Program-made: the position numbers and the translations under genes | The notes under the pieces: generated by a model | The model's input: only the letters and a program-made list of their open reading frames with translations | Databases searched by the model: none | Told to the model about the DNA's origin: nothing | Part shown: one piece after another, positions 6,200 through 41,000 of the stretch | Layout: every line of letters begins with the position of its first letter | How positions within the stretch are numbered: position 1 is the first letter of the stretch | Source of the DNA: an uncultured Nitrospirales bacterium | GTDB lineage: Bacteria > Nitrospirota > Nitrospiria > Nitrospirales > UBA8639 | Reading direction: 5' to 3' | Length of the DNA: 64,000 nt | Assembly (NCBI GenBank): GCA_958295805.1 | Contig: OY282373.1 | Location: forward strand, 715,001 to 779,000

Positions 6200-7711
6200 A
6201 TGAGTTCAATCGTTGCAGACCACGTTCTCAGTTGGATGATTGCCGTTCCGTTTCTTGGGATTGCGGTCCTGGTTTTCGTTCGGGATCGGGAATGGATTCG
6301 CCGAACGGCCCTTGCGGCGACGCTGTTGGATTTTGGTCTGTCCCTGATGCTCTGGGCCGGGTTTGACGTCGGAAATCAGGGCATGCAGTTTGTGGAGCGC
6401 ATGCCGTGGATGCCCACCTTCAACATTCAGTACGCCGTTGGCGTGGACGGCATCAGTCTCCCGCTGGTCGTGCTGACCACGCTGCTCTGTCCTCTTTGCG
6501 TCCTCTGTTCGTGGCGTTCCATCAATACGAGAGTCAAAGCGTTCATGATGCTGATCCTGTTGGTTGAAGGGGCGATGATCGTGGTCTTTACGGCTCTGGA
6601 CGTGTTCCTCTTTTTTATGTTGTGGGAAGTGACCATGATTCCCATGTATTTCCTGATCATTTTATGGGGAGGGCCGAATCGCATCGCGGCGGGCATCAAA
6701 TTCATCTTATATAGTTTGACGGGCAGCTTGTTGCTGTTGGTGGCGATTTTGGGGTTATACCTGGAAGGCGGCCGGACATTCGACGTCCTCGCTCTTGCCG
6801 GTCACACGTATTCATCGCAAGCGCAGTTTTGGATTTTCCTCGCCTTCTTTCTGGCTTTTGCCATCAAGATGCCGATGTTGCCCTTTCATACGTGGCTGCC
6901 GGACGCGCATTCAGAAGCCCCGACCGCGGGAAGCGTGGTCCTTGCCGGGGTGTTGTTGAAAATGGGCGGATATGGATTTTTGCGATTTTGTCTTCCCGTC
7001 TTTCCCGAGGCGTCCGCACAATTTGCGCCGTTCATTTTATGGCTGTCGGTCGCGGCCATTCTTTACGGCGGGTACATGGCCTTGGCGCAGTCCGACCTTA
7101 AAAAGCTCGTGGCGTATTCTTCGATTTCCCACATGGGATTTGTGACCCTGGGGATTTTTGTCTTCAACCATCAGGGCATCCAGGGCGCGGTCCTCCAGAT
7201 GTTTAATCACGGCGTGACGACCGGAGCCCTGTTTTTAGCGGTCGGACAGTTGTATGACCGCACACACAGTCGTTCCGTTCATGATTACGGCGGCCTTCAT
7301 GCAACCATGCCGCGATTTGTGGTGCTGTTGTGCCTCTTTTCCGTGGCGTCGTTCGGTCTGCCTGGGACGTGTAACTTTATCGGGGAATTTCTGGTCCTCG
7401 TCGGGACGTCATCCGAAAGTTTCGTCAAAGTGCTGCTGGCCATGGGTGGGATCGTCTTGGCGGCCGCGTATATGCTCTGGATGTTGCAGCGCGTCGCGTT
7501 TGGACGATCACGAACGGCGTTTGCCGCACGGCTACCCGATCTGAACTGGCGAGAAACGGCGACGATGATTCCTTTGGTGGTCATGGTGTTCTGGATTGGA
7601 TTGTATCCCGGGCCTTTCCTCGACGTGATGGACGCGAGCGTTTCGCACCTCGTGGAACACGTGACGGGAACGCTCGGACTTGAGGTTTCCCAACGTTCTC
7701 CCGGTCCCTGA
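6200..7711 (+). CDS. NuoM-like proton-translocating subunit
   Basis: A 503-residue NuoM-type protein and the last gene of the cluster. Family signatures include QYAVGVDGISLPLVVLTT, FFMLWEVTMIPMYFLI with the conserved Glu, KMPMLPFHTWLPDAHSEAPT and SDLKKLVAYSSISHMGF. Together with MrpD and the NuoL-like protein this gives the cluster three large ion-pumping subunits, one more than a normal Mrp. The ATG at 6200 is preferred over an upstream GTG at 6179 because it directly precedes the family-like N-terminus. The 54 bases after the NuoL-like gene show no further gene. Confidence 0.82.
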   Translation: MSSIVADHVLSWMIAVPFLGIAVLVFVRDREWIRRTALAATLLDFGLSLMLWAGFDVGNQGMQFVERMPWMPTFNIQYAVGVDGISLPLVVLTTLLCPLCVLCSWRSINTRVKAFMMLILLVEGAMIVVFTALDVFLFFMLWEVTMIPMYFLIILWGGPNRIAAGIKFILYSLTGSLLLLVAILGLYLEGGRTFDVLALAGHTYSSQAQFWIFLAFFLAFAIKMPMLPFHTWLPDAHSEAPTAGSVVLAGVLLKMGGYGFLRFCLPVFPEASAQFAPFILWLSVAAILYGGYMALAQSDLKKLVAYSSISHMGFVTLGIFVFNHQGIQGAVLQMFNHGVTTGALFLAVGQLYDRTHSRSVHDYGGLHATMPRFVVLLCLFSVASFGLPGTCNFIGEFLVLVGTSSESFVKVLLAMGGIVLAAAYMLWMLQRVAFGRSRTAFAARLPDLNWRETATMIPLVVMVFWIGLYPGPFLDVMDASVSHLVEHVTGTLGLEVSQRSPGP

Positions 7712-7794
7712 ACCTTGACGAACGTCGTTGCCTTCACGCGAACATGTTTTTCTGCCCTTGACTTGGTCTCGATTGCGTCTTATTACTTCATGAT

Positions 7795-8379
7795 ATGAGT
7801 CAACCGCGTCCATTAACGCATGATGAGAAAAAAGCCGCGGAGGCGGCCTTCCAGGGCCGACCGTTCGATGCCTCCTGGTCGAAATCTGCTCAGGGCATCT
7901 ATGAGGGTATTCTCAAAGCACGCGGTGACGTGGTGGATGCCGACTCCATTGAGACCAGCCCCGCGTCACCAACGCACACCCGCCACGTAACCTCCCGCCA
8001 GGACGCCATTGACGCCGGCTTACTTGTTGACGTGACCCCAAAGGCCCAACGCATCGGCTTGAATCTGGCCGTGGGGATTACCAAGTCGTTATGGGATCGG
8101 AGCATCACCCAGGCCGTGGAACTTGATCCGCATGAATGGGATCTCCGGGTCCGGGACATGTTGCTGGCCGTTCGCCTGCGACTTGCCGGTCTCGAAACGC
8201 CCATGCCGTGGATTGAAGTGCCGGTCTTGTTTCCGGCGGAGCACGGCGAAGCGTCACCCCGGATGTTTCCCATCTATGCCTTATTTCACAAAGATCCCGT
8301 TGCCGAAGACTGCCTGACGCTCATTCACCCGAATGAATGGTCTTCCATGCGCCTCTCGTCTCATTCCGACCAGGAATAA
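7795..8379 (+). CDS. DUF6573-like protein of unknown function
   Basis: A soluble 194-residue protein. The middle carries SRQDAIDAGLLVDVTPKAQ (residues about 62-80) followed by a segment on a helix-Trp pattern (LAVGITKSLWDRSI). This is the pattern of the DUF6573 family seen in phages, plasmids and chromosomes. No catalytic motif or membrane segment is visible. It stands alone, 83 bases after the antiporter cluster and about 160 bases before the transposon-like element. The family name is recalled, and no function can be assigned. Confidence 0.55.
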   Translation: MSQPRPLTHDEKKAAEAAFQGRPFDASWSKSAQGIYEGILKARGDVVDADSIETSPASPTHTRHVTSRQDAIDAGLLVDVTPKAQRIGLNLAVGITKSLWDRSITQAVELDPHEWDLRVRDMLLAVRLRLAGLETPMPWIEVPVLFPAEHGEASPRMFPIYALFHKDPVAEDCLTLIHPNEWSSMRLSSHSDQE

Positions 8380-11637: not shown

Positions 11638-11711
11638 AAACATAAATGAGGCTCGTCCTATGGTGGCTGTGGATCCCGCGACAACCGGTTTGTCCAAGTG
11701 GTCAGAATTCA

Positions 11712-11761
11712 AGAAAATGACAGTGAGTGTCTAAAAATTTTGTCTAATGAGGTCATTTTCT
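11712..11761. promoter_or_regulatory. Operator-like site before the RHH/methyltransferase genes
   Basis: A perfect 10-base inverted repeat (AGAAAATGAC at 11712-11721, GTCATTTTCT at 11752-11761) encloses two direct copies of TGTCTAA 13 bases apart (11728-11734 and 11741-11747). The site ends 15 bases before the RHH gene, which is a natural candidate for binding it. Confidence 0.5.
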
Positions 11762-11776
11762 GTAAAATCGTAAATC

Positions 11777-12019
11777 ATGAAATACGATTCAATGAACAAG
11801 TTTCGTAAACCCGTCTCCGACATTGGCAATCGGGGATTCATGGTGCGTGAGCCGTCCCCTCTGTCCGGAGTTACTCCTTCTGAAATGAAACGTCTCACCA
11901 TTGATGTTCCGGCGTATCTTCATGCCAATGTCAAAGCAGGGTGTGCGAGACGGGGCATTAAAATGGCAGATGCGATAAGGGAACTTCTCGAAGAAAAGTT
12001 TGGAAATATTGAGGGGTGA
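11777..12019 (+). CDS. Ribbon-helix-helix-like small DNA-binding protein
   Basis: An 80-residue protein. The C-terminal half (residues about 40-76) reads [18 protein letters not shown] and then a helix ending [12 protein letters not shown]. This fits a ribbon-helix-helix fold with a short beta strand followed by two helices. It overlaps the start of the methyltransferase gene (TGATG), so the two are coupled, and an operator-like palindrome precedes it. A role as a controller of the restriction-modification genes is likely; a ParG-type or antitoxin-type role cannot be excluded. Confidence 0.6.
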
Positions 12020-12795
12020 TGAAGACGAAACAAGTTGAAATGCGTTTTGGCTTAGCTGAACGTCATACGCCTTCAGGAAGGAGAAAACCTAATGGCGTTG
12101 CAACGTCAGACCTTATATTCTCGGCGTACGTCGGAAATAATTCAGACATTTTCCAGAAAATATTGAAGCTTCACGTTGCGACTGGAGCAAAAATTGCGGA
12201 TGTCACGTATGGCAAAGGAGTCTTTTGGAAAAATATAGATACGAGTCAATACGATTTTTCCCCCTCCGATATTGCAAACGGCATAGATTGCCGACACCTC
12301 CCGTACAAAAACCATTCATTTGATGCGATAGTCTTTGATCCACCGTACATGGAAGGGTTCTACAGGAAAGGGAATGCCACAAAGGCGGGCGACGGGACAC
12401 ACAACACGTTCAGAGAGCATTATTCGAATGGCGATGAAGCGCCTCAACCTCACGGCGGTAAATGGCACGAGGCCGTTTTAGAGATTTACAATGAAGGCGG
12501 CAAAGAGGCGTGCCGGGTACTCAAGGACGGAGGAATCTGTATCGTCAAGTGTCAGGATGAAGTGAGCGCGAACAAGCAGAATCTCACGCATGTGGAAATC
12601 ATCAACTCATACGCTGCAATCGGATTCTTCTGTAAAGATTTGTTTGTTGTGGTTCGCCCAAATAAACCCGGAATGAGCAGGGTCATCAACCAGATACACG
12701 CCAGAAAAAACCATTCCTACTTCCTTGTCTTTGTCAAAAAAGGCAAGAACGCATCGCACATGCGGTTTTCTAAAGCATCTCGTTCATCAAAGTAA
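12019..12795 (+). CDS. DNA methyltransferase (DPPY amino-methyltransferase)
   Basis: A 258-residue class I S-adenosylmethionine-dependent enzyme. A motif I-like segment [13 protein letters not shown] lies at residues 58-70, and the catalytic motif IV DPPY at 107-110, typical of N4-cytosine or N6-adenine DNA methyltransferases. The C-terminal half has the strand-rich pattern [11 protein letters not shown] and [12 protein letters not shown]. It overlaps the RHH gene at its start, and its last 26 bases overlap the convergent endonuclease gene. A GTG start three bases earlier is possible. Base composition is more AT-rich than the neighbours. Confidence 0.75.
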
Positions 12796-13351
12796 ACGGT
12801 TCCTCATAGAACGGCGGCTTGGGCGGCCAATGAACGGTGACGAGAGTGGCAAGCAACTGACTTTGTTGATACGCAGTGTAGCGTTTATATTTGGAAGACG
12901 GCAGGTCGCTGTTTTTTGCAAAAACAAATCTCCATTTCTCTTCGAAAGCAAAAACGTTGACGGCCAGAATATGAAATTCGTTGCGAAGTAAACAGGTTGT
13001 GTTTACTTTCGTTCCATCGGGAAGCATGACCTCTCGCCTGTCACTCGCATCCACTTGGACCTTGCCGACCCACCCTTCATCTGTTTTCTGTATCATATTG
13101 GTCTGTAGAGACTTCGACTCGAAAATGAACTTCTTGCCTTTGTAAGTAACGATGAGATCGCCTTTCTTTTTCCTGTCATGATCGTCATGCTTCGACGTGT
13201 CAGAAATTCCATCGCGTCTGAGCCATAATTTTTCCAACTTCAACTCTGCCAGATAGCCAAGGAGCATTCCCCTGAGGCTTGGTTTTTGATCCACTACTTG
13301 GGTAAGTTCCTCAACCGTGATATCCCACCGTTTCAGTATTGAATCAGTCAT
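12770..13351 (-). CDS. Probable type II restriction endonuclease (PD-(D/E)xK-like)
   Basis: A 193-residue protein convergent with the methyltransferase. The segment [20 protein letters not shown] (residues 62-81) gives Asp65, Glu78 and Lys80, matching the PD-(D/E)xK nuclease core, with Glu36 or Glu40 in the preceding helix. The protein is compact and without membrane segments. Its context, facing a DPPY methyltransferase and downstream of an HEPN gene by 15 bases, supports a restriction enzyme. Recognition sequence unknown. Confidence 0.65.
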
Positions 13352-13366
13352 AGATTGTGTATTTTG

Positions 13367-14014
13367 TTAGCCGTGACTAAATTTCGTCAGCAAAAACTGC
13401 TCAACAAAACCAATGACGCTATTGACATCAGGTTCTGATATTTTTTCCCAATCCGCGTGCATTGCGTAATTTCTTATCTTAGGCATAGCATCGAGCAGTG
13501 TTTTTTGTGCACCTGATACCAGGCCTTTCGATTTGAGCGCATTAATGACTGCCACCATTGACTCGTCATCAACATTCAGTCCATTAGCAGTCGCATAACG
13601 TTTCAGAGAATCTTCCAGTGCCGCAGATGCCAACACTGCTGCCACGTCTTTATGCCCTTCCGCGAGGGACTGCTTGGCCAAAACAATAAAATCGCCGAAG
13701 ACCTCTCCAGAAACCCTGAGATCAACGTTGAAAACGTAGCCACCTTCAAAATCTTCTTTCGCGCTCTTGAATCGTCCTTGGAGACCCTTAACGTGCGCAC
13801 CATCTCCTGCGCATGTTTTCACTGCTTCGGTAAAATTTATGTAGTGTGGCGAATCTTCTCCAAACACGGCTTTAATTAAATTCTGAGCGCTTGTAGCCCA
13901 TCCTTCCCAGCTACCGTCTGGTACGTAAGTGAAAGGATCGCCACTATGAAACGGTATTAAATCTGATTCCTTTTGGAGTTCTCGAAATCGTTTTGAAAAT
14001 TGATCGGTCTGCAT
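13367..14014 (-). CDS. HEPN-like protein of the restriction locus
   Basis: A 215-residue protein. The C-terminal domain (about residues 105-213) is all-helical, with an AAVLASAALEDSLKRYA helix and the motif RNYAMH at 181-186. This fits the Rx4-6H signature of HEPN domains, many of which are ribonucleases in defence and toxin systems. The N-terminal part (FTYVPDGSWEGWATSAQNLI) resembles the DUF4145-type arrangement. It lies upstream of the endonuclease in the same operon. It could be an abortive-infection effector, an accessory factor or an antitoxin-like partner. Confidence 0.6.
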   Translation of the reverse strand: MQTDQFSKRFRELQKESDLIPFHSGDPFTYVPDGSWEGWATSAQNLIKAVFGEDSPHYINFTEAVKTCAGDGAHVKGLQGRFKSAKEDFEGGYVFNVDLRVSGEVFGDFIVLAKQSLAEGHKDVAAVLASAALEDSLKRYATANGLNVDDESMVAVINALKSKGLVSGAQKTLLDAMPKIRNYAMHADWEKISEPDVNSVIGFVEQFLLTKFSHG

Positions 14015-14112
14015 AGAATTTCTTCATAATGGTTGTTTATCTTACAAATGAAAAAGTTCTGGCATGATTCGGATGTTGTCAAGTCCTGAAACAGGATGAT
14101 AGTTGGATCATC

Positions 14113-16359
14113 CTACATCACGTCTAGTGGATCCACGTTCACTCCGAACTTGACTTGCCGATACGTTTTTTCTCTGGTCATTTGTTCCAGCGTGTGTCTT
14201 ACGAGGGTTCTGGCGGCGGGTCCGTCTTTGAATTTGAGCAAGAGATGATAGCGTTGCCGTTTTGGCGACGTTGGTCCCCGCGAGAGCAGGGGGCCGAGGA
14301 CGGCGTCGTGTTCCTGGGGTGTCGTGTCTCCTTGCGAGATCATGCTTGCCCGTTGGGTGGTGAGTCGGTCTGCCCATAGTTTGGCGGCGGCTTCGGTTTC
14401 CGTTCGGTCTTTGCCTGATACCTCCAACTGGATGAGAAGACCGAACGGGGGGTATCCGGCCATTCGGCGGAAGGCCAGTTCATGGTCATAGAAGAGCTGG
14501 GGTTGTTGCGTCCTGATGGCCTGCATCGCGTGGTGAGAGGGCAGCTGCGTTTGAATCATTACTGAGCCGTTCATGCTTGGCGTGAGCAGATCCACTGCCT
14601 GTCGGAGATAATGAAACACGCGTTCCGAGGATCGAAAATCAGGAAGGTGCAATCCGGCGTCTGCGTAGGGGACGGCCACACATCTCACGGGACCGAGCGG
14701 GGACGCATGAAACAGCATCTGGGTGGCGACTAATATTTGAACGTGGCCTTTGCAGAATTGTTCTCTGACGTGGCGGGCCGTTGATTCGCTCTTGATCGCG
14801 TCGCCGTCATAGCGGCTGATGGTGGCGTGGGGATACCATCCTTTCAATTCCTCTTCGAGGCGTTCCGTGCCGAATCCAAAAGGTTCGAGTTTTGTGCCGG
14901 AACACGACGGGCACACGGTGGGGATGATCTCGGCCTGCCCGCAATAGGGGCACAGGAGTCGTGATTGGTGGAGTCTGAACGGGACGTGACAGCGCGTGCA
15001 TGATGGGGCCGTCCCGCACTCTTGGCAGGTGAAGGAGGAAGAAAACCCTTTGCGATTGTGGTAGACAATAATGCCGCCTTCCCGCTCCAGCGCCTTTTCA
15101 ATGCCTTGGCGCAAGACGTCGGAGAAGATTGTTCCGAACGGCACTTCTTGAAGGTTGACCATGTGAACGGCGTTTGCGGTTTCCTGGCTCGGTGTTGGAA
15201 AAGATTGTAGAACCTTGACTCGGCTTCCAAAGTGATGGACGGTCTCAAGCGTTGGGTGCGACGAATGGTACACGAGCACGGCTTGGTCCAACGACGCTCT
15301 TTTTCGTGCAACTTCCCGTGCGTGATAGTGTGGCCCGGCCTCTTCTTTATACGAGGTGTCTTCTTCTTGTTCGATCCATATGCACCCCAGGGCGGGGAGA
15401 GGAAGGAACAGGGCCGATCGGGTGCCCACGACCACGGCGTAGTGTCCCTGTCTGACGGCCTGCCATTCTTGAATGCGACGTTTTTCCGACAGGCCGCTGT
15501 GAAATTCTCCGATGCGTCCTCCAACCCGGCCACGAAGGCAGGCGGCCACGCGGAGCGACTGGTTGATGTTGGGCGTCAGCACAAGAGCCGTGCGCTGGTT
15601 GGCCAGTGTGGCTTGTATGACTTTCGCCAAGAGGGGAACATGCGGTCGTTCATGGGCCATGATTTCGCCGAATTGTTCGGTTGTGAGGTATTGCTGGAAA
15701 TGATCCCACCAAATGGGCAGGTCAGAATTTTCATGGAATCCGTCGGCAGATTGTTCGGGGACACCCGCGTCAGGCGGTGGGGGAGAGAGGGTATGGTGAA
15801 TGGGCCGTTCGCTCCAGTCTTCTTGTTCCTGAATCCATCGTTGTCGTTTGAGTTTTCTCAGAATTGGGGAAGGATTGTTCACAAGGTGGTCAATGGTTGA
15901 CGGTGCCAAGCCTTTGGAGCGTTTGGCCAGTGCCGTCAGGAGGGTGTGCGTGGTCGTGCCTCTGCGGGTGGTTTCAAGACGTTGATGTCCTTGCCGGGTC
16001 ATGGTCCAGCGGACGGTGCGGCGAAAGGGGAATTGGGGTGGTTGGATCAAGGCCATGCACGTCCCGATGGGAGCCAGATAATAGTCGGCCATCCAGTGCG
16101 ACAGGGCAACCAGATTGGGATCGAGGTCCCATTGCGACGACGTGATGAGGTGCAGGTCTCGAATTTTTTTTGGATGAACCGTGGCTTGCGTCGCGTCGTC
16201 GGTGAGAGAGACGACGAGCCCGGGTTTGTGCCGTGGGCCGAACGGGGCCAGAACCCATTGCCCCACCGCTGGTGGGGTTCTCCACGAATCAGGAATATGG
16301 TAGGTAAATGATCGGGAAATCCTGGGCGGAAAGACAACGTCGGCATAGCGTGGTCGCAT
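14113..16359 (-). CDS. priA: PriA-like primosomal protein N', ATPase motifs degenerate
   Basis: A 748-residue PriA homologue with the DNA-binding N-terminus (YADVVFPPRISRSFTYHIP), the conserved EFHSGLSEKRRIQEW and VVGTRSALFLPLPALG segments, and the zinc-binding cysteines (CQECGTAPSCTRCHVPF, then CPYCG and CPSCS). The Walker A loop (GxxGSGKT) is absent: residues about 232-245 read IMAHERPHVPLLAK. The Walker B DEEH is replaced by EQEED at 330-334, the SATPSLE motif by HSSHPTLE, and the helicase VAGRAGR motif by AVDLLTP. It probably recognises forks without helicase activity, as in actinobacterial PriA-like proteins. It stands alone, opposite in strand to fkbM. Confidence 0.85.
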   Translation of the reverse strand: MRPRYADVVFPPRISRSFTYHIPDSWRTPPAVGQWVLAPFGPRHKPGLVVSLTDDATQATVHPKKIRDLHLITSSQWDLDPNLVALSHWMADYYLAPIGTCMALIQPPQFPFRRTVRWTMTRQGHQRLETTRRGTTTHTLLTALAKRSKGLAPSTIDHLVNNPSPILRKLKRQRWIQEQEDWSERPIHHTLSPPPPDAGVPEQSADGFHENSDLPIWWDHFQQYLTTEQFGEIMAHERPHVPLLAKVIQATLANQRTALVLTPNINQSLRVAACLRGRVGGRIGEFHSGLSEKRRIQEWQAVRQGHYAVVVGTRSALFLPLPALGCIWIEQEEDTSYKEEAGPHYHAREVARKRASLDQAVLVYHSSHPTLETVHHFGSRVKVLQSFPTPSQETANAVHMVNLQEVPFGTIFSDVLRQGIEKALEREGGIIVYHNRKGFSSSFTCQECGTAPSCTRCHVPFRLHQSRLLCPYCGQAEIIPTVCPSCSGTKLEPFGFGTERLEEELKGWYPHATISRYDGDAIKSESTARHVREQFCKGHVQILVATQMLFHASPLGPVRCVAVPYADAGLHLPDFRSSERVFHYLRQAVDLLTPSMNGSVMIQTQLPSHHAMQAIRTQQPQLFYDHELAFRRMAGYPPFGLLIQLEVSGKDRTETEAAAKLWADRLTTQRASMISQGDTTPQEHDAVLGPLLSRGPTSPKRQRYHLLLKFKDGPAARTLVRHTLEQMTREKTYRQVKFGVNVDPLDVM

Positions 16360-40019: not shown

Positions 40020-41000
40020 TTACGGTTTATGGGCTAAGGCCAGACCGTGCAGTTGGTGAGGGTCGCTGTACCACGCCACTGGACTGAACCCCGCCTCGGT
40101 GAGGAGCCTTTCCACTTGGCCGCGGGTATATTTACAACTGATTTCCGTGAGGAGGTCTTCGCCTTCCTGGAGGTGAAGGGCCAACTCCAATTCGGGAATG
40201 GGAATCACTTGCGCTCGAATCGATCGCAGGGATATTTCAATCCAACGCTCGTCATGATTAAATCGAGCCACGTGGGCAAAAGCGTCGGGATCAAATTCCG
40301 CTCCGATCACGGAATTGACGACGGCCAGCATGTTTTTGTTGAACGCGGCCGTGAGCCCGGCTGCATCGTTGTACGCCGCTTCCATGCGAGCCACGTCCGT
40401 GATGAGTTGAGCCCCAAGGAGCATACAATCCCCCGAATCCATTTCGTGATGGATTGAGGATAAAAACGCCAAGGCGTCCTCAGGTCCCATGTTGCCGATG
40501 GTTCCGCCCAAGAAGATGACTAATCGTGGGCCACCATCCGGCAGGTGTTCTAAATGGGCAAGGAAATCCCCAACCACTCCATGCACCTGCAACCCGTCGT
40601 ATTCCTCAACCAGCTCTCGCGCCACTCGTCGCACGATGCCTTCGCTGAAATCAAACGGGACATAAAACCGAAGGTGGTTCGCTCGGGCCATCGCGTCCAA
40701 CAGCACCCGGGTTTTGATGGCGGCTCCCGAGCCTAATTCGACTAACGTCTCGGTGCCGGTTCGGGCGATGACCTCATCGGCCACGGTTTTCAGCAAGGCG
40801 TGTTCGGTGCGCGTCTGGTAGTATTCGGGCGATTCGCAGATTCGTTCAAACAGCGCGGACCCTTGATCATCGTACAAATACTTCGTCGGCAGCGTCCGGG
40901 GGGTCGAAAACAACCCCGCCCGAATTTCTTCTTTGATCGCCGCGGGATCCTGGGTGTTCAGATGCACATCGATCATGACGTTGGATTGCTCAAGCATCAT
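40020..41000 (-). CDS. egtD: L-histidine N-alpha-methyltransferase EgtD
   Basis: A 326-residue methyltransferase making hercynine from histidine, the first step of ergothioneine synthesis. Signatures are AGLFSTPRTLPTKYLYDDQG, SALFERICESPEYYQTRTE, VELGSGAAIKTRVLLDA and RLVIFLGGTIGNM. The start at 41000 is chosen because the upstream 72 codons are low-complexity, the family length is about 320, and an upstream start would overlap the transporter gene. Confidence 0.92.
   Translation of the reverse strand: MMLEQSNVMIDVHLNTQDPAAIKEEIRAGLFSTPRTLPTKYLYDDQGSALFERICESPEYYQTRTEHALLKTVADEVIARTGTETLVELGSGAAIKTRVLLDAMARANHLRFYVPFDFSEGIVRRVARELVEEYDGLQVHGVVGDFLAHLEHLPDGGPRLVIFLGGTIGNMGPEDALAFLSSIHHEMDSGDCMLLGAQLITDVARMEAAYNDAAGLTAAFNKNMLAVVNSVIGAEFDPDAFAHVARFNHDERWIEISLRSIRAQVIPIPELELALHLQEGEDLLTEISCKYTRGQVERLLTEAGFSPVAWYSDPHQLHGLALAHKP

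Follow-up and report, generated by a model that had tools for sequence, protein, structure and literature searches.

We found that the window, which is the whole 64-kb stretch of DNA analysed here, contains a four-gene insert that is probably a mobile type IIP restriction-modification (R-M) system of the NruI/Sbo13I family, with a HEPN gene as a captured accessory that is not needed for restriction. The R-M family is already known, while the putative ribbon-helix-helix (RHH) controller is unusual and the HEPN gene is optional. The features of the locus are as follows.

Up to 11637: left flank, a conserved membrane-protein gene.
11638..14112, no strand: extent of the insertion, junctions approximate; empty sites in 6 genus members, 44.9% GC.
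11740..11768, plus strand: sigma70-like promoter of the RHH-M operon, TTGTCT-17-TAAAAT; site conserved in position.
11766..11789, no strand: imperfect palindrome AATCGTAAATCATGAAATACGATT, core TCGTA-N10-TACGA, putative RHH operator; spans the RHH start codon.
11777..12019, plus strand: RHH, putative ribbon-helix-helix protein and autoregulator, 80 aa; from the ORF, Pfam and relatives upstream of M.
12019..12795, plus strand: M, DNA amino-methyltransferase of the M.NruI/M.Sbo13I family, 258 aa; DPPY at residues 107-110.
12770..13351, minus strand: R, restriction endonuclease of the NruI/Sbo13I family, PD-(D/E)xK fold, 193 aa; TCG^CGA predicted.
13367..14014, minus strand: HEPN/DUF4145 protein, 215 aa, optional; helical N-terminal region and C-terminal HEPN domain with RNYAMH.
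14113-16359, minus strand: right flank, priA.

The four open reading frames agreed with the arrangement described in the earlier note, in which an RHH-methyltransferase pair converges with an endonuclease-HEPN pair. The RHH and M reading frames overlap in a shared TGATG, the convergent M and R share 26 bp at their 3' ends, and the HEPN gene lies upstream of R on the same strand with a spacing of 15 bp. All four frames were open with intact motifs, and dN/dS across the four genes was 0.08-0.22. No system-level match to the four genes was obtained in PADLOC or NCBIfam.

That this is an R-M locus, as the earlier note had held, was confirmed by the homology of R and M to the Sbo13I system, although the note had overlooked that the pair belongs to the known NruI/Sbo13I family. 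R was 58% identical to R.Sbo13I and M was 57-60% identical to M.Sbo13I, with homology along most of the length. Relatives of R were detected by tblastn on Shigella boydii pSB13 (58%), E. coli pYLPK5b (58%) and a Leptospira plasmid (56%), and all three plasmids also carry the matching M, that of pYLPK5b having been left unannotated. The strain, the size of the plasmid and the order of its genes identify pSB13 as the 5.4-kb Sbo13I plasmid. Leptospira pLiSL22 (L003) carries an R-M pair of this family together with a second copy of M elsewhere (40225-40878).

M matched the Pfam family N6_N4_Mtase (8e-9), and its DPPY motif follows the AdoMet-binding half in a gamma-like motif order and is invariant with M.Sbo13I. 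R had no Pfam match; its catalytic residues D65 and E78-x-K80 were conserved in the alignments, and its AlphaFold model (pLDDT 91.5, built with 28 sequences) showed a PD-(D/E)xK fold. The model matched I-Ssp6803I (Z 12.4, 135 residues, 4.2 A), the Hjc resolvases (Z 8-9), and EcoRV and PvuII (Z 5-6). No PDB chain was matched by sequence to either R or M. The locus thus resembles Sbo13I in its convergent M and R, the PD-(D/E)xK residues of R and the DPPY family features of M, whereas it has RHH before M in place of the HTH C gene that Sbo13I has before R, and a HEPN gene stands before R in the window and in genome G185.

Sbo13I has been cloned and is an isoschizomer of NruI from Nocardia rubra, and both cut TCG^CGA, while the methylated base is apparently m6A for M.NruI and m4C for M.Sbo13I (PMC2890505). 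By homology, TCGCGA is the predicted target for cutting by R and methylation by M. Avoidance of TCGCGA was tried as a test of specificity and discarded: the source genome had 227 sites per Mb, the other carriers 220-252, and genus members without an R match 161-293. Since TCGCGA was not rarer in carriers, the genome counts give no independent support for the specificity. AGCGCT was rare in the source genome, with 88 sites in 2.9 Mb (30 per Mb) compared with about 84-151 per Mb in genus relatives. In the 64-kb window, 1 site was observed against 8.3 expected, and a further restriction system that recognises AGCGCT may have left this trace. Solitary relatives of M were also seen in mycobacteriophages (hits H1-H6, e.g. 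Wheeler; 53% identity, annotated as DNA or tRNA methyltransferase), where they possibly protect against NruI-type restriction in actinobacteria.

The first gene had been taken for an RHH controller, and it looks like one from the promoter-like site and the conserved palindrome at its start. Its profile matches were weak (ParG, E 0.001; 56B_RHH, E 0.003; both below the curated cut-off), and its start codon possibly lies further inside the gene. An RHH gene was located directly upstream of M in five Nitrospira loci (the window and L007-L010), in a Poribacterium (L013) and in a Pirellulales MAG (L027), and RHH-M-R is a recurring unit. This arrangement was absent from the other R-M loci fetched: Sbo13I, L016, L017, L020, L023, L032, L038 and L057 have an HTH gene upstream of R, and the remaining family loci have other small genes or none in the controller place.

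Sites equivalent to the RHH promoter-like site were detected in L008 (10/12) and L013 (12/12, perfect). About 3.5 such sites are expected by chance in the region, so the weight rests on the conserved position. The promoter lies too near the RHH start codon for a normal leader, and the mRNA may therefore be leaderless. The palindrome follows directly after the -10 box and had 1 match in the 64-kb window versus 0.01 expected; it was found at the same place in L007-L010, G277, G296 and the Poribacteria locus L013, and was missing in L027. From Nitrospira to Poribacteria the block of promoter and palindrome is nearly invariant while the sequence on both sides has diverged, and part of this conservation could be coding because the palindrome overlaps conserved codons (MKYD). 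A search for a second copy in the window gave none, and an extra match in the archaeal locus L035 falls within the M coding sequence. RHH is likely an autorepressor acting on a leaderless transcript.

The C-protein systems PvuII and Kpn2I are alike in having a small DNA-binding protein in the locus, an operator at its own promoter and a likely leaderless transcript; the C transcript of PvuII is leaderless (PMC2997769). However, their regulator is an HTH protein joined to R, whereas that of the window is an RHH-like protein joined to M and likely a repressor rather than an activator. No HTH C protein gene was found upstream of R in the window, where HEPN sits. The RHH regulators Omega and PaaR of toxin-antitoxin operons (PMC3874152) share with the window an RHH gene first in the operon, an operator at its own promoter and a protective gene next, but in the window the protective role falls to a methyltransferase, and the harmful gene is encoded on the opposite strand. 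Our literature search found no paper that describes a type II R-M system controlled by an RHH protein, which is no proof of absence.

The AT-richness that the earlier note had read as a sign of transfer was borne out by the flanks. The 2475-bp insert between the flanking genes has 44.9% GC versus 54.9% for the window, and under 0.2% of equally long stretches have a GC content as low. The left membrane gene was present in 14/14 genus members examined, and in six of these (G065, G200, G081, G298, G227 and G243) it adjoins priA, leaving an empty site. Carriers at the same site were the window, G185 (L010), G197 (L007), G173 (L009) and G299 (L008), and in G277 RHH and M extend up to the contig end. 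Between the window and its relatives, dS was 0.46-0.84 for R and M and 0.94-1.19 for the flanking priA and membrane gene, and the carriers were scattered on the priA tree. The lower dS of R and M together with this scatter suggests that the locus has been exchanged within the genus, although differing base composition could contribute to the dS gap. In G185, a 765-aa P-loop GTPase/AAA-like gene with a weak LeoA match lies between priA and HEPN (L010 1689-3986), so the insertion spot collects further cargo.

At the same site, G296 (L087 1968-3411) has kept RHH and the operator, while M breaks off after about 33 codons and a different methyltransferase, of the SPPY type, comes next, apparently one R-M system replaced by another. 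This remnant, and the lack of the locus in several genus members, could be read as signs that the window locus is decaying and inert; its four open frames, intact motifs and low dN/dS argue against this, and we regard such decay as extremely unlikely.

As the earlier note had proposed, the fourth gene proved to be a canonical HEPN gene. The protein matched DUF4145 (9e-7, above the Pfam cut-off), and its model (pLDDT 80) consisted of a short helical N-terminal region and a C-terminal HEPN domain. The best PDB matches were nearly all of the HEPN fold, including 2hsb (Z 14.4, 2.7 A over 116 residues), HepT, Csm6 and AbiA. R181 and H186 of RNYAMH (R-x4-H) were invariant in 9 relatives, and this canonical motif suggests an active RNase. 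The HEPN proteins of the window and G185 were 75% identical with a dN/dS of 0.22, consistent with purifying selection and with maintenance of the gene in both carriers.

HEPN was present in only two of the five intact same-genus loci, the window and G185 (L010), and was absent from L007, L008 and L009, which have kept RHH-M-R. Neither tblastn nor reading of the priA-R gap (about 160 bp in L008) revealed a HEPN remnant in these three. No HEPN relative was detected within the fetched flanks of the 31 other R loci (found among 84,980 species) or on the three plasmids, and among 296 genomes of the phylum 9 had R, 19 had a HEPN relative and 2 had both side by side. The closest outside relatives, on Paraburkholderia pBPHY01 (59%) and in a prophage (66%), were not beside such R-M genes. 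When the viral contigs were rescanned, the prophage gene was the sole close relative, with none in named phages. HEPN is an optional add-on and no fixed part of the locus. The earlier note had proposed a fixed four-gene set, to be given up if HEPN occurred independently of the R-M genes in relatives; it does so, and the neighbourhood survey refuted the proposal.

Two neighbouring observations concern related genes. The prophage relative (L042 3839-5642) closely follows a D12-class adenine methyltransferase gene where the tail genes end, which is a usual cargo place. In the Poribacterium locus L013, which has the RHH-M-R set, a separate protein is encoded beyond the RHH gene (7118-7933); it is a coiled-coil protein, and its C-terminus is DUF4145-like (RNIVAHH).

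The association of HEPN with R-M is not random: HEPN sits 15 bp from R and has been retained in two diverged lineages, which exceeds what chance cargo would lead one to expect. In a tree of M plus R rooted with other phyla, the window was the first to branch off and L010 the next (support 0.95 and 0.76); with this order, one gain and one loss of HEPN make a short history, and the genus may have had HEPN ancestrally and lost it once. In L008, where HEPN is absent, R is preceded by a promoter-like site, TTGCCT-18-CATAAT, within a stretch that L007 and L009 also have. The window has neither this stretch nor a promoter-like site of R's own, so R is probably read through from HEPN and the two genes are probably co-expressed in the source genome.

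The possible ancestry, the missing promoter and the fact that HEPN immediately precedes R in two species, with conserved proteins under purifying selection, would all suit a true partner. Such a partner would be a suicidal RNase of the PrrC kind that R or M keeps inactive until a phage blocks restriction. HEPN/DUF4145 genes have been recorded as recurrent neighbours of R-M systems, and a second, suicidal defence by such RNases is a published general hypothesis modelled on PrrC (PMC3710099). A suicidal second-line role is possible for the window HEPN, and the tight HEPN-R arrangement leaves room for it. Nevertheless, the R-M genes are maintained in the absence of HEPN in three sister genomes and at every other R locus fetched, and the closest outside HEPN relatives are without such R-M genes. 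PrrC RNase is moreover joined to a regulatory ATPase domain (PMC3710099), and none is present on the 215-aa HEPN protein. We therefore consider a true partnership rather unlikely. The window shares with PrrC of the PrrI type Ic system and with other HEPN-R-M neighbourhoods a HEPN RNase gene beside R-M (PMC3710099), but differs from PrrC/PrrI in having no ATPase domain, a type II rather than a type I system, and an optional association. Quite unlikely, in our judgement, is a complete built-in second line, in which HEPN and R form one transcript, R or M restrains HEPN, a phage block frees it, and the RHH repressor controls M; if true, the principle of PrrC would also hold for a simple type II system that has no ATPase sensor.

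The same transcription unit could also be read as regulatory: HEPN might tune the R-M system, for instance by cutting the mRNA that it shares with R, or its promoter might set the level of R expression. HEPN is indeed first in the unit, and the promoter-like site of the HEPN-less relatives is missing. Those relatives, however, presumably express R without HEPN, and R-x4-H points to an active RNase that gives no indication of being specific for the HEPN-R mRNA, which leaves such tuning very improbable.

We thus favour a mobile R-M system with a captured HEPN gene. In such a system, M would methylate and R would cut one shared palindrome, predicted to be TCGCGA. RHH and M would be expressed jointly from one promoter until enough RHH had accumulated; RHH would then most likely bind the palindrome that spans its own start codon, repressing RHH-M and giving an early burst of M followed by a low level. 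R would be transcribed from the opposite side, with the HEPN RNase gene presumably first in its transcription unit in the source genome and one sister species. HEPN would most likely be an accessory RNase of the abortive-infection type, captured by the locus and dispensable for restriction.

The controller changes within the NruI/Sbo13I family: some loci have an HTH gene ahead of R, some an RHH gene ahead of M, and others none that is recognised. In related bacteria, one chromosomal site holds this R-M system either with HEPN or without it. This natural comparison allows the long-standing proposal of HEPN RNases as a back-up of R-M systems to be tested directly in a small type II system.
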